A DNA stretch of 64,000 nt from Rhabdaerophilum sp. SD176 (GTDB lineage: Bacteria > Pseudomonadota > Alphaproteobacteria > Rhizobiales > Beijerinckiaceae): contig NZ_JARJNS010000007.1 of the NCBI RefSeq assembly GCF_030143245.1, forward strand, positions 62,001 through 126,000. Reading direction: 5' to 3'. Positions 53,001 through 64,000 of the stretch are shown in pieces. The position numbers were made by a program, and so were the translations under genes. How positions within the stretch are numbered: position 1 is the stretch's first letter; the number at the start of each line of letters is the position of its first letter. A model generated the notes under the pieces. That model saw nothing but the letters and a program-made list of their open reading frames with translations, did no database searches and was not told where the DNA came from.

Positions 53001-54352
53001 GCCAATCACTGGTTACTACGCTCATCCGCCGGCTTCTGCTGGCCGGCGGGCTGCTCACCCTGCTCAATATCGTCTTTGTCACGGCCTATTACAGCGCCGA
53101 CCCCGAGGGTTTGCGGCGCGAAAAGGTGAGCCACCAGATCGATCGCCTTGCCGAGGCGCTGAAGGTGGGGCCGGATGGCCGTCTTGCCTTCACGCCTTCG
53201 GAACGGCTGAAAGGCACCTTCACGCGCCATCCGGATGCCTATGCCTTCCGCATCGAGGACAGCGCGGGCGGCGTTCTGGGCGAGGCGAATGTCTCGCTTG
53301 TGCCCGCCGAACGCTGGAACGTGCCCAACGGTCCGGATGCGTGGTGGAGCGATGTGCAGGTCAACGGCCGATCCGTTCTCGTGGGTTCACGTCGGGCGAA
53401 TGTCGCGGGCGAGCCGGTGCGCATTGCCTTCGCGGCAGCGGGAGACCCCTCGAACCTGCTGCTCTTCGTCTATTTCGACGAGCTTTTCGTGCATGTCGTC
53501 GTCTCGCTCCTACCCTTCGCCATCTGTCTGATGATCGTGAATGCAGTGACCGTGCGCCAGTCTCTGCGCTCGCTGGTTCATGCCGCGGACGCCGCGCGGA
53601 AGGCCGGCCCCAGCCATGGCATTGCCACCCTGCCCACGCGCGGGCTACCGACAGAAGTGTTGATCCTCGTCGAGGCCATCAACGACGCGCTTCGGCGGTT
53701 GGGCGAGGCGCTTGAAGCCGAGCGCGCTTTCACCGCCGAAGCCGCGCATGCCTTGCGCTCGCCACTCGCTGTGCTGTCGGCACGCATCGAAACGCTGCCG
53801 AAAAGCGGCGAAATTGATGCTGTTCGCGCTGATATCGCGGCCTGGCGGCGCCTTGTGAACCAGCTTCTTTCGGCTGCTCAGGCCGATACGCTTGTGGTCG
53901 ATCCAGCGCGGCAATGCGATCTCACTGCGATCGCGGAGGGGGTCGTCAGCGCGATGGCGCCGCTGGCGATCCGCGAGGGGCGCGGTCTTGCGCTGGAGGG
54001 CGCTGCGCCGGGCATGGTCCGTGGCGATGCCGACGGTATCGCACATGCCCTTCGCAATCTCGTCGAAAACGCCCTGCGCTTCTCTCCGCCCGGCGAGGAG
54101 GTTCTCGTGCGCGTTACGGAGCCTGGGCTTCTCGCGGTACTCGATCGTGGGCCGGGCATTCCGGATGAGCAGAAACCTCTGGTTACGAAGCGGTTCTGGC
54201 GCGCCAGTGCATCGGATCTGGGCGGCACCGGCCTTGGTCTTGCGATTGTCCAGCGGATTGCCGAGGCGCATGGCTCGACGCTGGAGATCCGGGACCGGCA
54301 AGACGGCGGCACAGTGATTTCGCTTCAGTTTTTACCGCCCTCTACGCGATGA
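52997..54352 (+). CDS. Sensor histidine kinase (QseC/TctE-like)
   Basis: A 451-residue membrane kinase: TM1 at ~residues 12-32, a ~125-residue periplasmic domain, TM2 at ~residues 160-185, then DHp with H-box AEAAHALRSPLAVL (His ~ residue 250), N-box LRNLVENALRF, and G-boxes VLDRGPGIPDEQ and GGTGLGLAIVQRIAEAHG. The periplasmic sensor matches no domain I can name. It pairs with the upstream response regulator. Targets are not evident; genes of the island or the neighbouring methyltransferase are possible. Confidence 0.93.
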   Translation: MSQSLVTTLIRRLLLAGGLLTLLNIVFVTAYYSADPEGLRREKVSHQIDRLAEALKVGPDGRLAFTPSERLKGTFTRHPDAYAFRIEDSAGGVLGEANVSLVPAERWNVPNGPDAWWSDVQVNGRSVLVGSRRANVAGEPVRIAFAAAGDPSNLLLFVYFDELFVHVVVSLLPFAICLMIVNAVTVRQSLRSLVHAADAARKAGPSHGIATLPTRGLPTEVLILVEAINDALRRLGEALEAERAFTAEAAHALRSPLAVLSARIETLPKSGEIDAVRADIAAWRRLVNQLLSAAQADTLVVDPARQCDLTAIAEGVVSAMAPLAIREGRGLALEGAAPGMVRGDADGIAHALRNLVENALRFSPPGEEVLVRVTEPGLLAVLDRGPGIPDEQKPLVTKRFWRASASDLGGTGLGLAIVQRIAEAHGSTLEIRDRQDGGTVISLQFLPPSTR

Positions 54353-54962
54353 GTTCACTCAAGGCACGGCAGAACAATGTCTGCTACTGGGATATCAGTT
54401 GATCGATTTTTACGACCGAAACGGGCGCGCGGAGCGGTCGATCAAAGCAGTGTTGATTTATCTAGAGAGTCGGGTTGGCCGCGTCCCATAGCCGTTCTTC
54501 TGTGACCCTCCGGCGTAGCTGTGGCCCTTGCCGGATGGTTGCTTCGGAACTGAGCCATCCCGAAAAATCGGCTGTGGACAACTTCAATTCCGTGGGAAAT
54601 CTCGTGGGAAATATCGTCGGCAATAGGCGTCTAAACCATTGATTTGTATAGAGCGCTGAGAGTCCCTCCCTCTCCGCCATTAACTTCTTGTTAATATTTA
54701 TTTTGACGCCCGCATCAATGCGACGGCCTTGCGGATCGGTTGAGCACCACCCGCCTCGGCGCCTTGCCCCAGGGCGCCTGTTCAACCGGAACCGATAGAG
54801 CGGCATGACATGCCAACGCCCGGGTCAATGTTGCGATGGCAGCTTGGGGCTTTGCGGAATGCCCGGTTCCTCACGCATGATGTGAAGAACCTTCCGCTCG
54901 TAGATTTGACAAGACGTCCAAGTGCCAGGTCGTCAGTTCTGCCCGGCAACCCAGCCCATGAG
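54353..54962. other. Right end of island and flank
   Basis: About 610 bp without a convincing gene. It contains the right repeat (54663-54849). A 114-residue minus-strand frame across the repeat has no recognisable family and is probably not coding. Confidence 0.5.
54663..54849. repeat. attR core and extended direct repeat, right copy
   Basis: An exact copy of the 24-bp tRNA-Ser end (54663-54686), followed by ~160 bp of imperfect repeat of 34289-34456. It marks the right junction of the island. It carries no complete tRNA: the similarity starts within the T-arm. Confidence 0.85.
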
Positions 54963-55598
54963 TTACAGAACTGGATTGACGCGGGGTTTGCTGGCGATGA
55001 TGTAGGGGTTCTGTGGATAGGCTCCCAGAATGCGCTGCTCAACGATCTCCAGACCGGCGGCACCGATCATGGCCCGCAGGTCTGCAATCGTCAGTCGGTG
55101 CGCCGGCGGGAACAGGCCGACCATGCCCATGGCACGAAACAGAAAGCGCAGCTTGCGGCTCAGATCCCCGAAACACCATGTCTTGCTGATCAGAAGGCCG
55201 CCGGGCTTAAGATGATCGTGAATGTCAGCAAGCAAGCCCGCCGGATCATCGACCAGGTGCAGCACATTGAAGGCACAGATCGCGTCAAACGGGCCGGATG
55301 AAAAGCTCGCTTCGGCATCGGCAACGCGGAACTCAAGATTGCCCGGTGCCGGCTTCGCCCTGGCAATCCGGATCATCTCGGCAGAAAAGTCCGTTGCGAT
55401 GAATTGCGCGACATTCGGCGCCAGCCGGATCGCGGCACCCCCGGTTCCACAGCCCAGTTCGAGCACCGTATCGTCCGGTGTCAGCAGCGAGGCCGCATCG
55501 GCAATCAGGGCTTCGTAAGCAGCGACGTCCTTGATCTGGCGAGCGGCGTAACGTTCCGCGAAGCGGTTCCAGAACAACTGCCCCTTCGGGTTTGTCAT
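54963..55598 (-). CDS. Class I SAM-dependent methyltransferase
   Basis: A 211-residue methyltransferase with VLELGCGTGGAAIRLAPNVAQFIATDFSAEMIRIAR (motif I and acidic loop) and FDAICAFNVLHLVDDPAGLLADIHDHLKPGGLLISKT (post-motif). It resembles small UbiE/Methyltransf_11-type enzymes. The substrate is unknown. It lies just outside the island's right repeat and downstream of the sulfur genes, separated from them by a large stem-loop. Confidence 0.88.
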   Translation of the reverse strand: MTNPKGQLFWNRFAERYAARQIKDVAAYEALIADAASLLTPDDTVLELGCGTGGAAIRLAPNVAQFIATDFSAEMIRIARAKPAPGNLEFRVADAEASFSSGPFDAICAFNVLHLVDDPAGLLADIHDHLKPGGLLISKTWCFGDLSRKLRFLFRAMGMVGLFPPAHRLTIADLRAMIGAAGLEIVEQRILGAYPQNPYIIASKPRVNPVL

Positions 55599-55640
55599 GG
55601 GCCATCCGTCCGTTGGGCTGTGGAGAGGAGCGCTGGAGAA

Positions 55641-55696
55641 CCTCCCCCGCCCTGATCGCTCGATACTGGGGGTATGGACGATCCTGGCGGGGGAGG
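55641..55696. repeat. Long stem-loop between methyltransferase and DsrE-like genes
   Basis: CCTCCCCCGCC (55641-55651) pairs perfectly with GGCGGGGGAGG (55686-55696). After two mismatches GATCG/CGATC extends the stem. The loop is ~20 nt. It stands in a 138-bp gap at the end of the sulfur operon and could be a terminator without a U-run, a 3' stabiliser or an attenuator for the methyltransferase gene. Confidence 0.6.
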
Positions 55697-55736
55697 AATG
55701 CAGCCGCGAGAAATGGCTGCACGCTCGATATCCAAC

Positions 55737-56168
55737 TTATTGGCCAATCACCCGGATCGCCGGATTCGCCACCTTGTCGGCCATTTCCTTCGGGTTGGCC
55801 ACGGCCACGCCTTCGATCAGCGCGTCTGGCGTCAGCTTGCGATTGGGCAGGTAGATCGCACAAACACTGATCTTCCCGCCCTGCTTCAGAAAGCGTTCCG
55901 CAAGGGCCTTGACCGAGGCCCCTTGCGGCGTGACCGGGGCCATCTGCGCAGCCGGTGCGGCTTTCAGGACGATATCACCCGCCTGGCCACAGAGGAGCAC
56001 TTCAACCGCATTCCCGCTTCCCTGCATCTGATTGGCGAGAACAAACGAGAAGGCCTGCGATTCTGCCGTTTCAGCAGAAAGGAGCGACAAAATGGACTGG
56101 CCAGCAAAGGCGGGTGTGGAACCGAGCAGGACAAGACCGGCAAGAAAAGACTTGAGAGTGATGGTCAT
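55737..56168 (-). CDS. Exported DsrE-like protein
   Basis: A 143-residue protein with a signal peptide (MTITLKSFLAGLVLLGSTPAFA) and a DsrE/YchN-type domain containing two cysteines in family-like positions (VEVLLCGQAGD; GKISVCAIYLPNRKL). DsrE-like proteins carry or transfer sulfane sulfur. The start at 56168 has AAGGA at 8 nt; the ATG at 56174 is too close. It is the last gene of the sulfur operon, 20 bp after the rhodanese gene. Confidence 0.75.
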   Translation of the reverse strand: MTITLKSFLAGLVLLGSTPAFAGQSILSLLSAETAESQAFSFVLANQMQGSGNAVEVLLCGQAGDIVLKAAPAAQMAPVTPQGASVKALAERFLKQGGKISVCAIYLPNRKLTPDALIEGVAVANPKEMADKVANPAIRVIGQ

Positions 56169-56188
56169 GGTCATGATCCTTACCTGGA

Positions 56189-56776
56189 TTACTGCTGAGC
56201 CATCGGGAACTTGGCCTTGTCGAGCTTGTAGCCCCACGGAAGGCCGGCGTTTTTCCAGCCATCGACCAGGCGCCAGTTCTGCTTGTCGCCCGCTTTTACG
56301 GTGTCGCCTTCAAAGCCGTCCGTCACGACGTAGACCTTCGAATAGCCCTTGCCCCAGAGTTCCTTCGCAGAAGGGGCTCCGCGCTCACCGCCAGACCGGC
56401 ACATGAGAAGGATCGGCGTATCTTTGGAGAGGCCTCTTGCGGCTAGGGCCTTGGCAAGATTGGCCTCGAAGTTCGGATCTTTCTCGACCTGATAGACCGA
56501 GCGCTGCTCGTTCCATTTGCCGCGATTGGCGACCATGAAGGGCACCACCACATCCACAGCCGGAGCAAAGCCGGTGAACATGATCTCGATCGGATCCCGC
56601 ACATCCACGAGCAGAACCTTGTCGCCCTGCGCCTGCTTCATGGCGAAGGCTTCCCTTGAATCGACATAGAGTTTCCAAGGCGTCTGGCGATCAGGATTGG
56701 CGGGCTCGGGAGCAGCCAGCGCGGAGACTGTGCCGAGAGCCAACGCGCCTAGAACGGTTATGTGTCGAAGTTTCAT
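56189..56776 (-). CDS. Exported rhodanese-like protein
   Basis: A 195-residue protein with a signal peptide (MKLRHITVLGALALGTVSALA) and one rhodanese domain: DKVLLVDVRDPIEIMFTGFAP and the active-site loop ILLMCRSGGERGAPSA with the catalytic cysteine. It would move sulfane sulfur in the periplasm, for example from the persulfide or thiosulfate product of the adjacent sulfide oxidoreductase. It starts 49 bp after the DUF5368-like gene. Confidence 0.87.
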   Translation of the reverse strand: MKLRHITVLGALALGTVSALAAPEPANPDRQTPWKLYVDSREAFAMKQAQGDKVLLVDVRDPIEIMFTGFAPAVDVVVPFMVANRGKWNEQRSVYQVEKDPNFEANLAKALAARGLSKDTPILLMCRSGGERGAPSAKELWGKGYSKVYVVTDGFEGDTVKAGDKQNWRLVDGWKNAGLPWGYKLDKAKFPMAQQ

Positions 56777-56825
56777 GATGATCACCTTGGTCAAGGAATG
56801 TTGGAAGGATGGAGGAAGGCGAGGT

Positions 56826-57200
56826 TCAGCGCCGGAAGGCGCGTGAGTGATCGGAATTGTCGCGGACGATCAGGCTGAGCCCGACATAGGCCACCATGGT
56901 GGCGCCGATCACTCCGGCCACCCAGATCGCGATCGTCAGCAGCCAGTCGATCGGCCCGCCGAGGAGATCGCCCGGGCTTGAAGCCGTCACCCACATCATC
57001 AACGCGACGGCCGCAAAACCACCGAGGAGGCCGATCAGCTCGGCACGGATCAGGCGCCGAGAATGCACGCCACCATCACGGATGAGGACAACGAGGAGGG
57101 CCAAGGCCCCCACTAGAATGAACGCGATGAGCGGCCAGAAGAGCGGTCCCAGCATCTCCTGGAACACGACAACAAAAACCATGGGATCTAGCTGTTTCAT
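56826..57200 (-). CDS. Small membrane protein, DUF5368-like
   Basis: A 124-residue protein with three predicted membrane spans (FWPLIAFILVGALALLVVLI; ELIGLLGGFAAVALMMWV; WLLTIAIWVAGVIGATMVAYVGLSLI) joined by short loops. The pattern FQEMLGPLFWPLIAF...HSRRLIRAELIGLLGG...GPIDWLL resembles DUF5368 as I recall it, a family often beside sulfide/flavocytochrome genes. It lies 12 bp after the sulfide:quinone oxidoreductase gene and may anchor it or link it to the quinone pool; this is inference. Confidence 0.65.
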   Translation of the reverse strand: MKQLDPMVFVVVFQEMLGPLFWPLIAFILVGALALLVVLIRDGGVHSRRLIRAELIGLLGGFAAVALMMWVTASSPGDLLGGPIDWLLTIAIWVAGVIGATMVAYVGLSLIVRDNSDHSRAFRR

Positions 57201-57212
57201 GGGCGTTGCTCC

Positions 57213-58532
57213 TCAGGCCTGTCCGCGCAACATGGCGAGATAGGTGGGTTTCAGGGCGATCTCCTTCATGACCCAGGAAATCCAGAGCTCCTCAAGCGGC
57301 GCGATGATCCCCGGGAACGAAGGCGTCAGATTGTTCTCGTAATCGAACTCGACGAGCATCGCCCGGCCGATCCGGGTAATGAGCGGGCAGGATGTGTAGC
57401 CGTTATACGCCTCGCTGGACGTGCCGCCGGAGAGGCTCGCCACCAGATGATCGACGGCAACCGGCACCTGCCATTTCACGCTCGCAGCGGTCTTGCCCTT
57501 GGGCACGCCGGCGACATCGCCGACCCCGAATACATTCGGAAAGCGCTTGTGGCGGAGCGTTTTCATGTCAACTTCCATCCAGCCATCGGCTGCAAACGCG
57601 CCGGTTTGCCAGGCCAGAGCGCTTTCGCGCACAGCCTTGGGTGCCCGCATCGGCGGAATGACATTCACGAAGTCGTAGCGGATCTCCTGGCTACCGGCCG
57701 GCGTCCTGAACGTGGCAATCTTTCGGCCGGGATCGATGGCGGTCATCACATGGTCGTGGACCATTCTCACGTTCCGGTCCTGGAACAGCATCCTGACCTT
57801 TTCGGAGACGATCGGCACGGAAAACAGTGCCTTGTTCTGCGCGGCATAAATCAGTTCGGTCTTGCCGCGCGTGCCGGCACGACGCAGGCGATCATCGGTG
57901 ATGAAGGCATATTTCAGGGGCGCGCCGGCGCATTTCATTTCCGTATCAGGGCGGTGGAACAGGCCCACCCCACCCGTGTCGGTAAAGCGCGCCATTTCCC
58001 GCCAGGTCGCCTCGGCCGCTTCCGGCCCTGCATAGACCGAACCGATCCCGTTCTTGCCGATCAGCCCGGTTTCCATGCCGGAAATCGCGCCGTAATCGAG
58101 CTGAAGTCCGGTGGCGACAATCAGGAAATCATACGGAATGGTCTGCCCGCCTGTCGTCTTCACCCGGTTCTGTTCGGGTTCGAAGGCGGCCACGCTGTCC
58201 TCGATTAGGGTTGCACCGGCAGGGATGTAATCCCGCGTCTGGGAGATCGCGTAATCCTTCGGCTTGAGGCCTGCGGCGACGAGTGTGAAGCCGGGCTGAT
58301 AGAAATGCGCCTTACGGGCATCGATCAGGGTGATCGCGGCCCCATCGAGGCGCTGTACCAGCCGCGATGCGCTCGCAAGCCCGGCCGCCCCGGCACCGAC
58401 AATGACAATCCGGGCTTTTGTCGCGAGCCGAGCCTGCGCGGAGGCCGGACGGCTCAGGATGCCAGCCGTCGCGGCCGCTCCCAGGGACAGAAGTGACCGG
58501 CGCGAAAGTGAATTGATTGACTTCGAAGCCAT
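57213..58532 (-). CDS. sqr: Type II sulfide:quinone oxidoreductase-like flavoprotein, Tat-exported
   Basis: A 439-residue FAD protein. The N-terminal twin-arginine signal (LSRRSLLSLGAAATAGILSRPASAQ) is followed by VIVGAGAAGLASASRL. Two redox cysteines sit in the sequences known from human SQOR: MKCAGAPLKY (C201) and GYTSCPLIT (C382). A later FGVGDVAGVPKGKTAASV binds FAD. Type II SQRs oxidise sulfide to a sulfane-sulfur acceptor and reduce quinone. The start at 58532 matches the signal; an in-frame extension to 58643 does not. It heads the operon with DUF5368-like, rhodanese and DsrE-like genes, all encoding membrane or exported proteins. Confidence 0.88.
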   Translation of the reverse strand: MASKSINSLSRRSLLSLGAAATAGILSRPASAQARLATKARIVIVGAGAAGLASASRLVQRLDGAAITLIDARKAHFYQPGFTLVAAGLKPKDYAISQTRDYIPAGATLIEDSVAAFEPEQNRVKTTGGQTIPYDFLIVATGLQLDYGAISGMETGLIGKNGIGSVYAGPEAAEATWREMARFTDTGGVGLFHRPDTEMKCAGAPLKYAFITDDRLRRAGTRGKTELIYAAQNKALFSVPIVSEKVRMLFQDRNVRMVHDHVMTAIDPGRKIATFRTPAGSQEIRYDFVNVIPPMRAPKAVRESALAWQTGAFAADGWMEVDMKTLRHKRFPNVFGVGDVAGVPKGKTAASVKWQVPVAVDHLVASLSGGTSSEAYNGYTSCPLITRIGRAMLVEFDYENNLTPSFPGIIAPLEELWISWVMKEIALKPTYLAMLRGQA

Positions 58533-58602
58533 GCGTGAACCTCCCCGCCTGCCGCGATGTTCCGGCCCGACTTGATCGGTGCCCGGCGGCGAACGGAGAG
58601 AT

Positions 58603-58642
58603 ACATGCGATTTATCGCATGTGATCGAAATGCGAATTCGCA
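58603..58642. promoter_or_regulatory. Two adjacent palindromes upstream of sqr
   Basis: ACATGCGA-ttta-TCGCATGT (58603-58622, perfect 8-bp arms) and the 12-bp palindrome TGCGAATTCGCA (58631-58642) share the half-site TGCGA. They lie 70-110 bp before the sqr start in the 162-bp gap after the Crp/Fnr gene. They are likely operators of a dimeric regulator; neither looks like an FNR box (TTGAT-N4-ATCAA). Confidence 0.6.
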
Positions 58643-58694
58643 ATGGAAGAACGAACCAGTCTTCAGAAGGCTGCCAACGCCATTGAACTTTCGA

Positions 58695-59399
58695 TCAAGC
58701 GTCGATCAGACGACGAAGATTGGGCACATCGCACAGGAAGTGATTGGTGCGCGGTTCGGAGATGAAACCCTGCCGCTTCAGCTCCGCCATGGTCCGGCTG
58801 GCCGTCTCGGTGGTCAGCCCCAGAACGGCACCGAGATCTTCGCGGCTGAAAAGATCGCAGCGCTCTCCGTCGTGCCGTTCCGTCAGCCAGAGCAGCAGAC
58901 GCACGACACGATCGCGCGATGAGCCGGTCGAGAATTCGGTGATCCAGCGATCGGCATTGCTGAGCGCCTTGTGCCAGCGTGCCATCAATTCATGGAAGAG
59001 CTGGGCGTTGCTCTGCGAGAGCATGCGGACGAAATCCACCGGCAGCCGGCAGATCTCCGTATCCTGGAGCGTTGTCGCTGTATGGGGATATTCCGGTTCG
59101 ATCAGGGCTTCGAGACCGATGAGATCGGTCTTTCCCATCAGGCGGACAATCCGTTGCGTCCCGTCGGGCAGGAACTGGGTAAGCTTCACAAGCCCGTTCC
59201 GAATGGTGAAAAGCGAACCAGCAGGATCGCCGGCGGAATAGATCACGGCGCCGGCAGGGAAAACCGACTGATCGATCGGCCGGTGAAACCGCTCGAAATC
59301 ATCTTCCTTCAGCCCGGCGAACAACACTGAGTTCCGGATCATGCAATTCCGGCAATCCGCCGTTCCGCTCCAGGCCTCATGCAATCCGATACGCTTCAC
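58695..59399 (-). CDS. Crp/Fnr-family transcriptional regulator
   Basis: A 234-residue regulator: cyclic-nucleotide-type sensor (GAVIYSAGDPAGSLFTIRNGLVKLTQFLPDGTQRIVRLMGKTDLIG) and C-terminal HTH (FSREDLGAVLGLTTETASRTMAELKRQGFI). Cysteines at 16 and 19 (DCRNC) and one near 113 (TEICRLP) recall FNR, which needs four for its 4Fe-4S cluster; the third N-terminal cysteine is missing. It starts 12 bp after cydC, on the same strand. Oxygen or sulfur sensing for the cyd and sqr genes is plausible. Confidence 0.88.
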   Translation of the reverse strand: MKRIGLHEAWSGTADCRNCMIRNSVLFAGLKEDDFERFHRPIDQSVFPAGAVIYSAGDPAGSLFTIRNGLVKLTQFLPDGTQRIVRLMGKTDLIGLEALIEPEYPHTATTLQDTEICRLPVDFVRMLSQSNAQLFHELMARWHKALSNADRWITEFSTGSSRDRVVRLLLWLTERHDGERCDLFSREDLGAVLGLTTETASRTMAELKRQGFISEPRTNHFLCDVPNLRRLIDA

Positions 59400-59411
59400 A
59401 ACATCTCCCCC

Positions 59412-61127
59412 TTAATCGGCGCGAGAGTGTCTGGGCCCCTCGGGGATTGCAAGGCTGTGCTTGCTTATCGCGACAAGTTGACCGGCTTCCAGCCGGAAGA
59501 TCTCGTCCATCTCGGCAAGCCCGGCCAGCCGATGCGTAAGCAGGAGCAGGCTTGCTTCTGGATGATCCGCGAGGACAGCTACCATGACGGCGGATTCGGT
59601 TTCTGCATCAAGCCCCTCGGTTGGCTCGTCAAGGATCAGGATGGCGGGCCTCCGCAACAGCGTTCTCGCCAGAAGCAGGCGCCGCGCCTCGCCGCCGGAC
59701 AAGGCCCGGCCATGCGCACCGACCCAGGTGTCGAAACCTTCCGGCAGGCTTTCGATCAGCGGAAGAATCTGCGCCGTCCGACAAGCCTGTTCCAGGGCCA
59801 CGTCCGATGCATCAGGATCGGCAAAGAGCAGGTTGCCGCGAATCGTCCCGCTGAAGATGTGATCGTTCTGGGCCAGCAACGCGATATGCTTCCTGAGATG
59901 TTCGCCGGAGAGCTGCCGGTAGTCATGCCCGTTCAGGACAAGGGCACCGTGTTGCGGGGCGAGGAACCGAAGGGCCAGTGCTGCCAGCGTGGATTTGCCG
60001 GAGCCGCTGGCCCCCAGAATGGCGATGCGCTGCCCTGGTTTCAGCACAAGGTCGAGATCACGCAAGCCTTCACCCGCCGCTCCGGGATATCGGAAACACA
60101 TATTGCTGAAATGCAGGGTCAGAGGTGCGAAAACCGGTTCGGGTTGAGCCGGCTCCGGGACCGCTTGCTCACGATCGGCGATCCCGAAAACACGTCTTGC
60201 CGAAGCCAGCACGACCGGAACGGACTGGACCGCCAGCGGCCATCCGGCGACGGCGTCGAACAGAGCCACTGTCATGAGCAGAAGCATCGGCAATTCGGCC
60301 GGCGGCAAGCCCCCAGCCTGTACAGCGGGTATGCCAATCACCAGAAGAATGACAACGCCGAGATGCGCGAAAAGCGGGATCGCGGCATTGCCGAACGCTT
60401 GCCCGCGCGCGAGCCGATCTTCCGCAGCGAGCAAGCGATCCGAATGGCCGATCAGGCTTTTCCGATGGAGGCCCTCCGGATCGTAGATTGCAAGTTCCGC
60501 CTGCCCTTCGATCGCCTCGACCGATGCGGAATTCAGATCGGCCGTCGCCTCGGCTGCGATTGCGGCATCGCGTCGGTGGATCGCGAGGAGCACGATCGGA
60601 ACGCCCATGCCGGCACAGGCGAGGAGCGCGCCAAGCACGAAGGCGACAAGCGGTTGGCTGATCGCAAGCCAGATCAGCACCGGAAGGATGACCAGCATAC
60701 CGGCCAATATGGGCGCCACGATCCTCAGGAAGGCGAGTTCCATGCGGTCAATATCGACACGCAGGCGCGTCAGCAGATCGCCCGCCGAAATGCCTTCGAG
60801 CGAAGCCGGGGCTGCCCGCTCGATACGGCCAAAGAGCCAGGCGCGCAGGCGGGCAACAAACCGCAAGGTTGCCTCGTGGCCAACCAGCCGCTCGGCATAG
60901 CGGCCCGCCGTTCGAAGGATGGAGAATCCCCGGATCATCGCGGCCGGCGTGAAGTAGTTCATGGAAAGACCGGCCAGTCCGGCGAGAGCCATGGACGTAA
61001 TGAACCAGCCCGATGTCGCCATCAGCGCCACATGGGCCGCAGTCGCCACGGCCGAGACAAAGACCGCCAGCACCATCCAGCCCGCATGGGGCCGCATGAG
61101 CGAGAGAAGACGCCAGAACGTCATCAT
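59412..61127 (-). CDS. cydC: Heme/thiol ABC exporter CydC
   Basis: A 571-residue ABC half-transporter: six-span membrane domain (~residues 15-310), then an ATPase domain with GASGSGKSTL, LSGGEARRLLLARTL and AILILDEPTEGLD. FWRLLSLMRPHAGWMVLAVFVSAVATAAHVALMATSGWFIT is the CydC-type N-terminus. With CydD it is needed for cytochrome bd assembly, exporting cysteine/glutathione or loading heme. It overlaps cydD by 4 bp. Confidence 0.93.
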   Translation of the reverse strand: MMTFWRLLSLMRPHAGWMVLAVFVSAVATAAHVALMATSGWFITSMALAGLAGLSMNYFTPAAMIRGFSILRTAGRYAERLVGHEATLRFVARLRAWLFGRIERAAPASLEGISAGDLLTRLRVDIDRMELAFLRIVAPILAGMLVILPVLIWLAISQPLVAFVLGALLACAGMGVPIVLLAIHRRDAAIAAEATADLNSASVEAIEGQAELAIYDPEGLHRKSLIGHSDRLLAAEDRLARGQAFGNAAIPLFAHLGVVILLVIGIPAVQAGGLPPAELPMLLLMTVALFDAVAGWPLAVQSVPVVLASARRVFGIADREQAVPEPAQPEPVFAPLTLHFSNMCFRYPGAAGEGLRDLDLVLKPGQRIAILGASGSGKSTLAALALRFLAPQHGALVLNGHDYRQLSGEHLRKHIALLAQNDHIFSGTIRGNLLFADPDASDVALEQACRTAQILPLIESLPEGFDTWVGAHGRALSGGEARRLLLARTLLRRPAILILDEPTEGLDAETESAVMVAVLADHPEASLLLLTHRLAGLAEMDEIFRLEAGQLVAISKHSLAIPEGPRHSRAD

Positions 61128-62824
61128 GCCGATGCATCCGCCGGCGCCAGCCCGACCCGGCCCGCGTCGAGCCAGATTGTCCGATCCGCCAATGCCCGCG
61201 TTTCTCCACGATGGGCAATGATCAGGAGGGTCCGGCCCGGCTTCAGGGCTCTGATGGACCCGTGGATCAAGGCTTCGGTTTCCGGATCGAGATGGGCCGT
61301 CGGCTCATCCAGCAGCACGAGCGGCGCATTGCGATAGAAGGCGCGTGCGAGCCCAATCCGTTGCGCCTCACCGCCCGACAAGGCATGGCCGCTGGCACCG
61401 ATGACGGTGGAAAAGCCCTTGGGCAGTCCAGCGATCCGTTGATCAATCCGGGCCTGCTCAGCGGCCCGGCGCACTCGATCCGCGTCGGGGTTTCCATCAC
61501 CGAGTGCGATATTGGACGCGACAGTTCCGGTGAACAGTGTCGGCTGCTGGGGGATATAGGCAATCGAGCGCCGGAGTGCCGCCAGCGGGATCGTTTCCAG
61601 CGCCTGCCCATCGATCCGGATAGCACCTGAATCCGGCATCACGAAGCCCATGAGAAGGCTGAAAAGGCTGGATTTTCCGGCACCGGATGGGCCCGCAATC
61701 GCCACGCATTCGCCAGCGGCGACAGCAAGGGTGATGCCCGTCAGGCCTGTTCGCTCGCCGGGATAGGCAAGGTGCACATCCTCGATCGTGAGCGCCGGTG
61801 CATGACGGAGCAGCGGGCCTGTCATGCTTGCCGGCATTTCATCCGGCCGCGCCAGTTCAGGCATGGTCTCCAGTGCAGCCAGCCGCTCAGCGGCTCCCAA
61901 AGCCTCCATGCGGGCGTGATAGGCCGTGCCCATCGCGCGCAGGGGCAGATAGAATTCCGGCGCCAGCAGCAGGATGAAGAGCCCGTGCTGGTAGCTCATC
62001 TCGCCCCAGAGCAAACGGAACCCGATCAGCACAGCAATGATGGCGATCGAAACGGTAGCAAAGAATTCAAGCGTCAGTGCGGAGAGAAAAGCGATCCGCA
62101 GGACCCTCATCGTTTCCAGGCGGTAGGAATCCGCCGCTTCGGCCACGGCCTGCTGCATGCGCGGACCGGCGTTGAAGGCCTTGATGGTCGCCAGTCCCTG
62201 CATCGCATCCAGGAAATGGCCGGACATACGCTGGAGCTTCAGCCATTGCCGCTGGTTCAGGGCCTCGGCGCCCTTGCCAATCAGCACCATGAAGAACGGG
62301 ATCAATGGAGCCGTGATCAGGAAGGCGAGGCCGGAGATCCAATCGAGCGGCGCAACGACAGCCAGAATGCCGAGGGGCAGCATCGCGGCTTGTGCAGTTG
62401 CAGGCAAATATCGGGAGAAAAAAGGCTCAACGCCACGCACGCCTTCAGCGAGAGCGGAGACGACCTCGCCAGTCGGGCGCGTGGAGAGACCAACAGGCCC
62501 GACCCGATCCACCTTCTCCAGCAGGGCCGATCGCAGCTTCGGCAGAATGGCGAGTGCTGCGGCAAAACCGGAGCGTTCGGCGATGTAGCTCGCCAAAATT
62601 CGCGCCAGGACTGTCAGTGCAAGCAGGACGATCAGGCCAAGCACAGTGTCCAGCGCCTGCTTCTCGACCAGCACCCGATGCAGGATCATCGCCAGCAGCC
62701 AGGCCTGCCCGACAATCATGATGCCGGAGATGCCACCGGCAATCATCGCGCGGGTCAACGGCTTCCGCGCGCGGGGCCGCCAGCGTTTCAGGAAGTCCAG
62801 CGCCTGAGGAGAGGAACTCGCCAC
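61124..62824 (-). CDS. cydD: Heme/thiol ABC exporter CydD
   Basis: A 566-residue ABC half-transporter with the CydD-type segment GFAAALAILPKLRSALLEKVDRVGPVGLSTRPTGEV, and an ATPase domain with GPSGAGKSSLF, LSGGEAQRIGLARAF and LVLLDEPTAHLD. It is the partner of CydC. The gene follows cydX by 55 bp, so the order on the minus strand is cydB-cydX-cydD-cydC. Confidence 0.93.
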   Translation of the reverse strand: MASSSPQALDFLKRWRPRARKPLTRAMIAGGISGIMIVGQAWLLAMILHRVLVEKQALDTVLGLIVLLALTVLARILASYIAERSGFAAALAILPKLRSALLEKVDRVGPVGLSTRPTGEVVSALAEGVRGVEPFFSRYLPATAQAAMLPLGILAVVAPLDWISGLAFLITAPLIPFFMVLIGKGAEALNQRQWLKLQRMSGHFLDAMQGLATIKAFNAGPRMQQAVAEAADSYRLETMRVLRIAFLSALTLEFFATVSIAIIAVLIGFRLLWGEMSYQHGLFILLLAPEFYLPLRAMGTAYHARMEALGAAERLAALETMPELARPDEMPASMTGPLLRHAPALTIEDVHLAYPGERTGLTGITLAVAAGECVAIAGPSGAGKSSLFSLLMGFVMPDSGAIRIDGQALETIPLAALRRSIAYIPQQPTLFTGTVASNIALGDGNPDADRVRRAAEQARIDQRIAGLPKGFSTVIGASGHALSGGEAQRIGLARAFYRNAPLVLLDEPTAHLDPETEALIHGSIRALKPGRTLLIIAHRGETRALADRTIWLDAGRVGLAPADASA

Positions 62825-62879
62825 GAGATGTCCGTTTCAACAGTCGCTGGGCCGCCTTGAACGCGCTTTCCTATCGTTC

Positions 62880-63029
62880 TCAGCCATGCACCTTGCGGCT
62901 GCCTGCCGATGCCGCCTCCGTCGCGGCCTCTTCGCTCTCGAACTCGTTCTGGAACTCATACCACATCACATTGATGACACCGAAGGCGAGAGCAGCCGTG
63001 ACACCAAGAATCCACGCAAAATACCACAT
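62880..63029 (-). CDS. cydX: Cytochrome bd oxidase small subunit CydX
   Basis: A 49-residue protein beginning MWYFAWILGVTAALAFGVIN, the diagnostic CydX/YbgT sequence, with one membrane span and then a charged tail (NEFESEEAATEA). The gene starts 22 bp after the cydB stop. CydX stabilises the CydAB complex and its hemes. The tail is longer than in E. coli CydX (37 residues). Confidence 0.92.
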   Translation of the reverse strand: MWYFAWILGVTAALAFGVINVMWYEFQNEFESEEAATEAASAGSRKVHG

Positions 63030-63051
63030 GATTTCAATCCTTTTCCGAGGT

Positions 63052-64000
63052 TCAGTAAGCGGAGTGCTTGTTCGCTTCGATCTGCGCGAGCGTGACCCGG
63101 CCCCACATCGCGCGATACGCCCAGAGCGTGTAAGCGAGCACGATGGGCAGGAAGATCAACACCGCAAAAAACATGATCTTCAGCGTGAGGTGACTTGAGG
63201 CGGCGTCCCAGACCGTCAGGCTGGCATTCGGCTGCGTGCTCGAGGGCAGGAGGAAGGGAAACATGGCAGCGCCCGCTGTTCCGATGATCCCGGTCATGCC
63301 GAGGCTCGAGGCAACAAAACCGATGCCCGGTCGGCCCGCCCTCGACAGTTGACGCGCGGCAAGCGGCATCAGAAGGCCCGTGATCGGCAGGAGCATGGCG
63401 ACGGGAAGTTTCGCATAGATATCGAACCACGCGCCGGCCGCGCGTACCACTTCCTTTGCCAGCGGGTTCGGCAGTGCTGAATGCGCCGGCTCGGAGACGA
63501 TGCGATAGCCATCAATGCCCAGCCACAGCCAGATCCCGCCCAGTGCGAAAGCCGCCGGAACGACAAGCCCGAGGCTGCCGATCGCGGAACGTGCCCGGTC
63601 AGCAATCACGGTATCCGCCCGCATCTGCAACCAGAGCGCGCCGTGCAAGGCCAGCATCGCGACGCTGATCGCACCGGCGAGCAGCGCAAACGGATTGAGC
63701 AGCGGCAGAAGCGCCCAGATAAAGCTGCCCTCGAAATGCGGCTTCAGGAAGCGATCCAGATGGAACGGCACCCCCTGAAGCAGGTTGCCGAACGCTACGC
63801 CAAAGATCAGCGCCGGCACGAGCCCGCCGACGAACAGGCCCCAATCCCACGCATTGCGCCATTTCGGATTCTCGAGCTTCGAGCGGTAGTCAAAGCCGAC
63901 CGGCCGGAAGAAAAGCGCAACGAGCACGAGCAGCATCGCGAGATAGAAGCCCGAAAAGGCTGCCGCATACACCGCTGGCCAGGCCGCGAAGATCGCCCCG
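63052..64000 (-). CDS. cydB: Cytochrome bd ubiquinol oxidase subunit II CydB (5' end beyond window)
   Basis: The C-terminal ~316 residues of CydB are visible. The frame is open to the right edge, and GAIFAAWPAVYAAAFSGFYLAML at its beginning corresponds to CydB residues ~60-80 of ~380. Further signatures are NPKWRNAWDWGLFVGGLVPALIFGVAFGNLLQG and the multiple membrane helices. CydB and CydA form the high-affinity, sulfide- and cyanide-tolerant quinol oxidase. cydA is expected just beyond the right edge. Confidence 0.93.
   Translation of the reverse strand, partial: GAIFAAWPAVYAAAFSGFYLAMLLVLVALFFRPVGFDYRSKLENPKWRNAWDWGLFVGGLVPALIFGVAFGNLLQGVPFHLDRFLKPHFEGSFIWALLPLLNPFALLAGAISVAMLALHGALWLQMRADTVIADRARSAIGSLGLVVPAAFALGGIWLWLGIDGYRIVSEPAHSALPNPLAKEVVRAAGAWFDIYAKLPVAMLLPITGLLMPLAARQLSRAGRPGIGFVASSLGMTGIIGTAGAAMFPFLLPSSTQPNASLTVWDAASSHLTLKIMFFAVLIFLPIVLAYTLWAYRAMWGRVTLAQIEANKHSAY

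Follow-up and report, generated by a model that had tools for sequence, protein, structure and literature searches.

A predicted Tat-exported, type II-like sulfide:quinone oxidoreductase and its constant DUF5368 membrane neighbour beside the cytochrome bd genes of Rhabdaerophilum sp. SD176

The DNA stretch considered here (the window) comprises 64,000 nucleotides of Rhabdaerophilum sp. SD176 (contig NZ_JARJNS010000007.1, positions 62,001 to 126,000). Its right end carries, on the minus strand and in the order of transcription, cydB, cydX, cydD, cydC, a gene for a Crp/Fnr-family regulator, a gene for a sulfide:quinone oxidoreductase (SQR, 57213..58532), a gene for a small inner-membrane protein of the family DUF5368 with three predicted helices (56826..57200), a rhodanese gene (56189..56776) and a DsrE-like gene (55737..56174). 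The Crp/Fnr gene begins 12 bp past cydC and is followed by the SQR gene after 162 bp; the gaps from SQR to DUF5368, from DUF5368 to rhodanese and from rhodanese to the DsrE-like gene are 12, 49 and 14 bp, respectively. A methyltransferase gene lies 138 bp downstream of the DsrE-like gene and is left out of the module. The rhodanese (Pfam Rhodanese, 1.1e-6) has the active-site motif CRSGGER, and the DsrE-like protein (Pfam DsrE, 1.2e-4, exactly at the cut-off) has two cysteines. No RNA elements were found in 54000-64000, and sigma-70 promoters and terminators in 54900-59500 were not above the level of shuffled sequence. A sequence-only reading of this DNA had listed an SQR-like protein with both redox cysteines, a rhodanese, a DsrE-like protein and a small membrane protein, all of which are indeed present on the minus strand. 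It overlooked the strongest feature of the locus, the constant DUF5368 partner of the SQR.

The best solved relative of the window SQR is human SQOR (1.3e-66, 228 bits), whereas the structures of bacterial SQRs of other type (Aquifex, Acidithiobacillus) and of flavocytochrome c sulfide dehydrogenase (FCSD) reach 44-70 bits, which places the protein closest to the SQOR-type enzymes. Both redox cysteines of SQOR are aligned in it, within the motifs MKCAGAP and YTSCPL, and these residues, Cys201 and Cys382, are invariant in 51/51 SQRs of the clade described below. The central and flavin-binding domains of FCSD are absent from the window SQR according to Pfam, and both are present in SoxF of the same genome. 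An assignment of the SQR type through NCBIfam was dropped, since the sole matching model also matches ordinary type II SQRs.

The sequence-only reading had also proposed export signals on three of the proteins, and these were recovered. The SQR has a predicted twin-arginine translocation (Tat) signal, MASKSINSLSRRSLLSLGAAATAGILSRPASAQA, with the twin arginine R11 R12, a hydrophobic stretch and a signal-peptidase-like site. The rhodanese and the DsrE-like protein have predicted Sec-type signals, MKLRHITVLGALALGTVSALAA and MTMTITLKSFLAGLVLLGSTPAFA, with hydrophobic peaks of 2.22 and 2.24, compared with 1.27 and 0.57 in two cytoplasmic controls; all three signals were judged by inspection together with a simple measure of hydrophobicity. 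In order to follow the signal through related proteins, 51 SQR genes were assembled, each at least 44% identical to the one in the window. The set consists of the window itself, 20 named genome contigs, six genomes of the same family, 18 loci found via DUF5368, and six plasmid loci. Two of 22 loci (L058 and L060) were dropped as they are cut by contig ends, and the duplicates L009, L010 and L102 are uncounted. All of these SQRs (51/51) share an aligned twin arginine, start codons having been chosen with the motif in view; the automatic Tat pattern, which includes a hydrophobic residue, caught 49/51, and L081 and L089 were assigned by eye. L082 begins at a contig edge, with its twin arginine.

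The outgroup consisted of 30 SQR loci (18 + 12), L138 having been dropped for want of an annotated SQR gene. None of these 30 SQRs has a Tat signal. A loose Tat pattern flagged two haloarchaeal outgroup proteins, and these were rejected because their arginines are part of the FAD domain. The exported clade is set off by a single branch with a Shimodaira-Hasegawa-like approximate likelihood ratio test (SH-aLRT) value of 100, or 97 with the wider outgroup, in a tree of 18 of the 51 clade SQRs and 20 of the 30 outgroups. It is sister to 16 type II-like rows (97) and does not fall within them, in a tree without a known type III reference. Several residues are fixed in a clade-specific manner: R194, M199 and T380, some of them near the cysteines, and also K353, E415 and W417. 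Two of the outgroup loci deserve mention in their own right. The Rhodococcus SQR, which has no Tat signal, overlaps by 4 bp with a gene for a 178-aa protein with three predicted helices and no Pfam match (L130:3604-4140), possibly another SQR membrane partner; the Rubrobacter SQR (L127:2330-3694) has a hydrophobic N-terminal stretch ahead of the FAD domain, perhaps a signal anchor.

The small membrane protein of the window matches DUF5368 (PF17336, 5.8e-34) with 117.2 bits against a curated cut-off of 25. Among the 33 usable loci that were collected without recourse to DUF5368 (window included), all 33 have a small membrane-protein open reading frame (ORF) directly after the SQR gene; 32 of these ORFs have three predicted helices and one (L049) has two. 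The window DUF5368 is matched by BLAST in 25/33, itself counted, and six further ORFs are diverged: L079 is recognised by Pfam at 8.8e-11, and L077 by hhalign at 2.6e-8 and by a DUF5368 hidden Markov model (HMM) at 1.1e-27, L077 itself being a row of that HMM. The relation also holds in reverse. DUF5368 is over the cut-off in 13/385 genomes of the class and 9/398 of the phylum, and 20/20 distinct DUF5368 genomes (window genome included) have an SQR gene just upstream; two matches below the cut-off, L074 and L075, were excluded, and L075 has no SQR nearby. Against the 30 outgroup SQR loci, the best E-value of the HMM was 0.012, in L118, on the opposite strand. That the exported SQR and this neighbour are conserved together at 51 loci excludes chance as an explanation.

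The distribution of charge gives DUF5368 a predicted orientation. In 51 rows, including two distant ones (Salinivibrio and Acinetobacter) that had been left out of the HMM, the mean number of K+R is 4.1 in loop 1 and 2.8 at the C-terminus vs. 0.6 at the N-terminus and 0.3 in loop 2, which suggests that the N-terminus lies outside and the C-terminus inside. Two acidic residues are conserved, D85 in 51/51 and E15 in 49/51, both on the predicted periplasmic side. An AlphaFold2 model built from 20 sequences (predicted local distance difference test, pLDDT, 87.2; predicted template modelling score, pTM, 0.72) has helices at 6-42, 47-72 and 83-111. The SQR-DUF5368 pair also occurs in species used in the laboratory: it is present in Paracoccus denitrificans PD1222 (PDEN_RS23370 and PDEN_RS23375), and Cereibacter sphaeroides EBL0706 carries it likewise. 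No paper found in a literature search, whose coverage leaves many subscription papers outside, names DUF5368; searches relating SQR to Tat export, the periplasm, membrane anchoring, bd or cyd returned no paper on the pair among the matches listed, as judged from titles and the starts of abstracts.

An operator-like palindrome, ACATGC-N8-GCATGT (58603..58622), lies 90 bp before the start of the window SQR gene. Exact copies are found 37-46 bp before the chosen SQR start in L078 (same family as the window genome), L055 (Cereibacter ovatus) and L109, i.e., at 4/51 loci vs. 0 in 200 shuffles, although the pattern was drawn up with the window and L078 already in view, which leaves L055 and L109 as the two independent cases. 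A looser form, CAT[GT]C-N8-G[AC]ATG, precedes the SQR at 8/51 loci vs. 0.095 in shuffles, and when the half-sites of the core are set 6, 7, 9 or 10 apart instead of 8, they occur no more often than expected by chance. In the window genome and in that of L078, the exact copy before SQR is the only one genome-wide; G020, of the same genus as the genome of L078, has zero exact copies. The reported SqrR site is ATTC-N8-GAAT (PMC9774250, accessible part); the accessible parts of PMC10451225 and PMC9995734 give no site sequence. The window variant, ATGC-N8-GCAT, keeps this layout and differs by a single base in each half, and the exact ATTC-N8-GAAT itself precedes the SQR at 3/51 loci vs. 0.3 in shuffles.

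The Crp/Fnr-family gene (58695..59399, minus strand; Pfam cNMP_binding and HTH_Crp_2) may not be the regulator of the SQR gene, because the upstream site resembles the box of SqrR, an ArsR-family protein, rather than an FNR box. FNR-like boxes do occur 70-121 bp before SQR at 7/51 loci (L049, L059, L091, L093, L106, L107, L109) vs. 0.03 in shuffles; the window locus and those of Bosea, G398, L039 and L052 contain none at all. FNR control of the window genes was rejected, as the window locus has no FNR-like box.

Beyond the right end of the window, the same strand continues upstream with cydA, a DUF6858 gene and a gene for a SLAC1/TDT-family channel. Within flanks of up to 10 kb, often less, the 51 loci include SLAC1/TDT at 9, DsrE at 6, rhodanese at 4 and Crp/Fnr at 3; three broad control families scored 5, 5 and 2 in the same count, so these neighbour figures are partly chance. 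The SLAC1/TDT loci are L039, L040, L050, L055, L076, L088, L106, L107 and L109, and the channel may move sulfide or sulfite. L109 has SQR, DUF5368, TDT and DsrE in a row. A DUF6858 gene (L076:15911-16423) stands between the SLAC1/TDT gene and cydA, and DUF6858 is beside TDT in L039 and L040 too.

Acinetobacter haemolyticus plasmid p4 (L125, 9586-23067) is mobilizable. On one strand it has cydAB and the exported SQR with its small membrane neighbour; an insertion sequence (IS) element follows, and past it come, on the other strand, tatABC, a peroxiredoxin, a rhodanese and DsrE, the whole set taking ~12 kb. The plasmid also holds a sulfur-dioxygenase-like gene of the metallo-beta-lactamase (MBL) type. 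Similar ingredients have been put together here separately, with their own Tat exporter.

The window genome also contains soxB (824.6 bits) and, in its sox cluster, a SoxF/FCSD flavoprotein. In that cluster (L095:4514-6340), a DsrE-like gene is located directly upstream of SoxF, and its product has a twin-arginine start.

Taken together, the data make it probable that the locus encodes a two-part SQR that works at the periplasmic side of the inner membrane: an exported flavoprotein together with DUF5368 as its docking or quinone-site partner. The flavoprotein would fold with FAD in the cytoplasm and then be exported by Tat, as its signal indicates. By homology to human SQOR, the two cysteines would oxidize sulfide to sulfane sulfur, and a quinone would be reduced. 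DUF5368 would most likely dock the flavoprotein and line or feed the quinone site. The exported rhodanese and DsrE-like protein may accept sulfane sulfur from SQR outside the cytoplasm, perhaps passing it towards the Sox system of the genome, and, judging from the upstream site, a repressor of the SqrR type probably switches the genes on with sulfide. The quinol would be used by whichever oxidase is available; here the likely one is cytochrome bd, encoded in the same operon. The SQRs known to us are one-protein enzymes that lie on the membrane surface. A bolder form of the proposal, which we put forward tentatively and with rather less than even confidence, is that the clade represents the first two-subunit SQR, with the flavoprotein and the integral DUF5368 forming a periplasmic quinone site and the sulfur handled wholly outside the cytoplasm.

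Several observations weigh against the two-part SQR or against details of it. The sole NCBIfam model that matches the window SQR does so with a score well short of its cut-off, and it fails to tell SQR types apart. The neighbour in Salinivibrio is distant from DUF5368 (HMM 2.8e-6, hhalign 0.074) and that in Acinetobacter is borderline (HMM E-value 0.0023, hhalign 0.79). The looser operator-like site is missing from 43/51 loci, and the best BigR-like gene of the window genome, near the sox cluster, scores 101 of 155 bits, below the family cut-off. To these are added the late choice of the site pattern, noted above, and the scarcity of cyd genes, considered below. The C-terminus of the SQR belongs here as well. 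According to the accessible part of PMC9666304, most SQRs have two amphipathic C-terminal helices, and truncation turned one SQR soluble and inactive and left another membrane-bound and active. In the clade, 51/51 SQRs end 2 residues past the last conserved Gly vs. 10-21 past it in the first 18 outgroups, and the short C-terminus had been considered as a sign that DUF5368 replaces a membrane anchor. This was dropped after the SQRs of Staphylococcus, Priestia, Rhodococcus and Rubrobacter turned out to end 2 residues past the Gly as well, with no DUF5368; since they share it, the short tail is no argument for a partner.

The same short-tailed SQRs of other groups, which get by without DUF5368, lend some weight to another view of this protein: an accessory factor rather than a subunit, acting as a channel for HS-/polysulfide or quinol or in the assembly or insertion of the exported SQR. 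DUF5368 is small and three-helical, with no recognised catalytic motif, and a second transporter type, SLAC1/TDT, recurs at 9/51 loci, so that transport is part of the setting. The transporter neighbours vary, however, whereas DUF5368 is directly adjacent at every usable locus, and its conserved E15 and D85 are predicted to face the periplasm, where the exported SQR would be. We consider an accessory role rather unlikely.

The sequence-only reading had placed the module next to a Crp/Fnr gene and the cyd genes, and Pfam and NCBIfam bear this out: the module is downstream of cydABXDC and Crp/Fnr. On the minus strand, cydC occupies 59412..61127 (NCBIfam TIGR02868 over the cut-off), cydD 61124..62824 (TIGR02857 over the cut-off), cydX (YbgT_YccB) 62880..63029, and cydB 63052..64000, with its 5' end beyond the window (Pfam Cyt_bd_oxida_II; NCBIfam cydB over the cut-off). 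From this placement a dedicated route from sulfide through quinone to cytochrome bd had been proposed. Cytochrome bd is sulfide-resistant, and Acinetobacter baumannii raises its SQR and bd genes together under sulfide (PMC8148161, accessible part). The adjacency itself recurs, as the window, Bosea sp. TND4EK4, G398 (same class) and the Acinetobacter plasmid all have cydA and cydB next to the exported SQR, and these loci fall in three lineages of the tree. Consistent linkage is not seen: these are 4/51, and no cyd genes were found near the other 47/51 in flanks that reach 10 kb at most and, at some loci, less than 2 kb. Co-occurrence at the genome level is weak, with cydA in 9/13 class genomes with DUF5368 vs. 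152/372 without (Fisher p 0.041 one-sided, 0.049 two-sided, kinship ignored), the cydA, soxB and DUF5368 searches being taken as the same draw of 385 genomes by their number and handles. The remaining 4/13 have no cydA match, and the window genome itself has a second cydA and two haem-copper oxidase genes. A route with obligate cyd is therefore unlikely in the face of the loci and genomes in which no cyd genes were seen, and what survives of the proposal is the bd link as a recurrent option, not a rule.

The exported flavoprotein could also have a substrate different from sulfide (a periplasmic thiol, a persulfide or a selenide, for instance), whose oxidation would reduce quinone. The clade has fixed residues of its own, some near the cysteines, and sulfide is assigned as the substrate by homology alone. 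Both SQR redox cysteines are nevertheless invariant and the neighbours include the sulfane-sulfur proteins rhodanese (4/51) and DsrE (6/51), which makes a different substrate improbable; we rate it slightly lower than we otherwise would, because an SqrR-like site precedes some members. That the genes form a lithotrophic module of the Sox pathway is highly improbable: the genome does have soxB, and a DsrE-like gene adjoins that of its SoxF/FCSD flavoprotein, but soxB is over the cut-off in 2/13 class genomes with DUF5368 vs. 37/372 without (p 0.63, kinship ignored), and the link of the exported SQR to Sox was rejected for this lack of class-wide association.

The two-part SQR favoured here points to a widespread probable sulfide oxidase acting outside the cytoplasm, hidden in plasmid records under labels such as FAD- or NAD(P)/FAD-dependent oxidoreductase. 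If true, it changes where these proteobacteria catch sulfide and handle sulfane sulfur, and it offers a testable role for a protein family without a known function.

Comparison with known systems helps to define what is particular to this clade. With type II SQRs (human SQOR, Staphylococcus Sqr) it shares the sequence family, the two redox cysteines and the FAD fold, and it is a sister clade to them; it differs in the predicted Tat signal, in the constant DUF5368 neighbour and in forming a group of its own outside the 16 type II-like rows. FCSD (SoxF/FccB), of which the window genome has one in its sox cluster, is likewise an exported sulfide-oxidizing flavoprotein. It hands electrons to cytochrome c, not to quinone, and the window SQR is without its domains and scores 58-69 bits to FCSD structures vs. 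228 to SQOR. The SQR of Rhodobacter capsulatus is reported to act on the periplasmic side as well, but it is a type I sequence, and the Aquifex and Acidithiobacillus SQR structures are at 44-70 bits to the window SQR. The R. capsulatus enzyme is under SqrR regulation (PMC9995734, accessible part).

Pairs of an SQR-like flavoprotein with a fixed neighbour exist elsewhere. Each of the haloarchaeal SQR-like genes L129, L132 and L136 has a DUF1641 gene at most 2 bp downstream, and Priestia has a similar pair whose DUF1641 match is below the Pfam cut-off; these neighbours differ from DUF5368 in having none to one predicted helix and in belonging to another Pfam family. Tat motifs on type II SQRs were already noted in Sulfurimonas and other Epsilonproteobacteria (Han and Perner 2015, PMC4584964), so such a motif by itself is not new; the accessible part of that paper mentions no membrane partner, and the comparison was made by description. 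The location of SQR is still a live question, as a 2026 study reassigned the SQR of cable bacteria from the periplasm to the cytoplasm on the ground that it has no signal peptide (PMC13047784, accessible part). Set beside these systems, what is new here is a clade of SQRs with predicted export and a constant, uncharacterised membrane partner, some members of which are preceded by an SqrR-like site.

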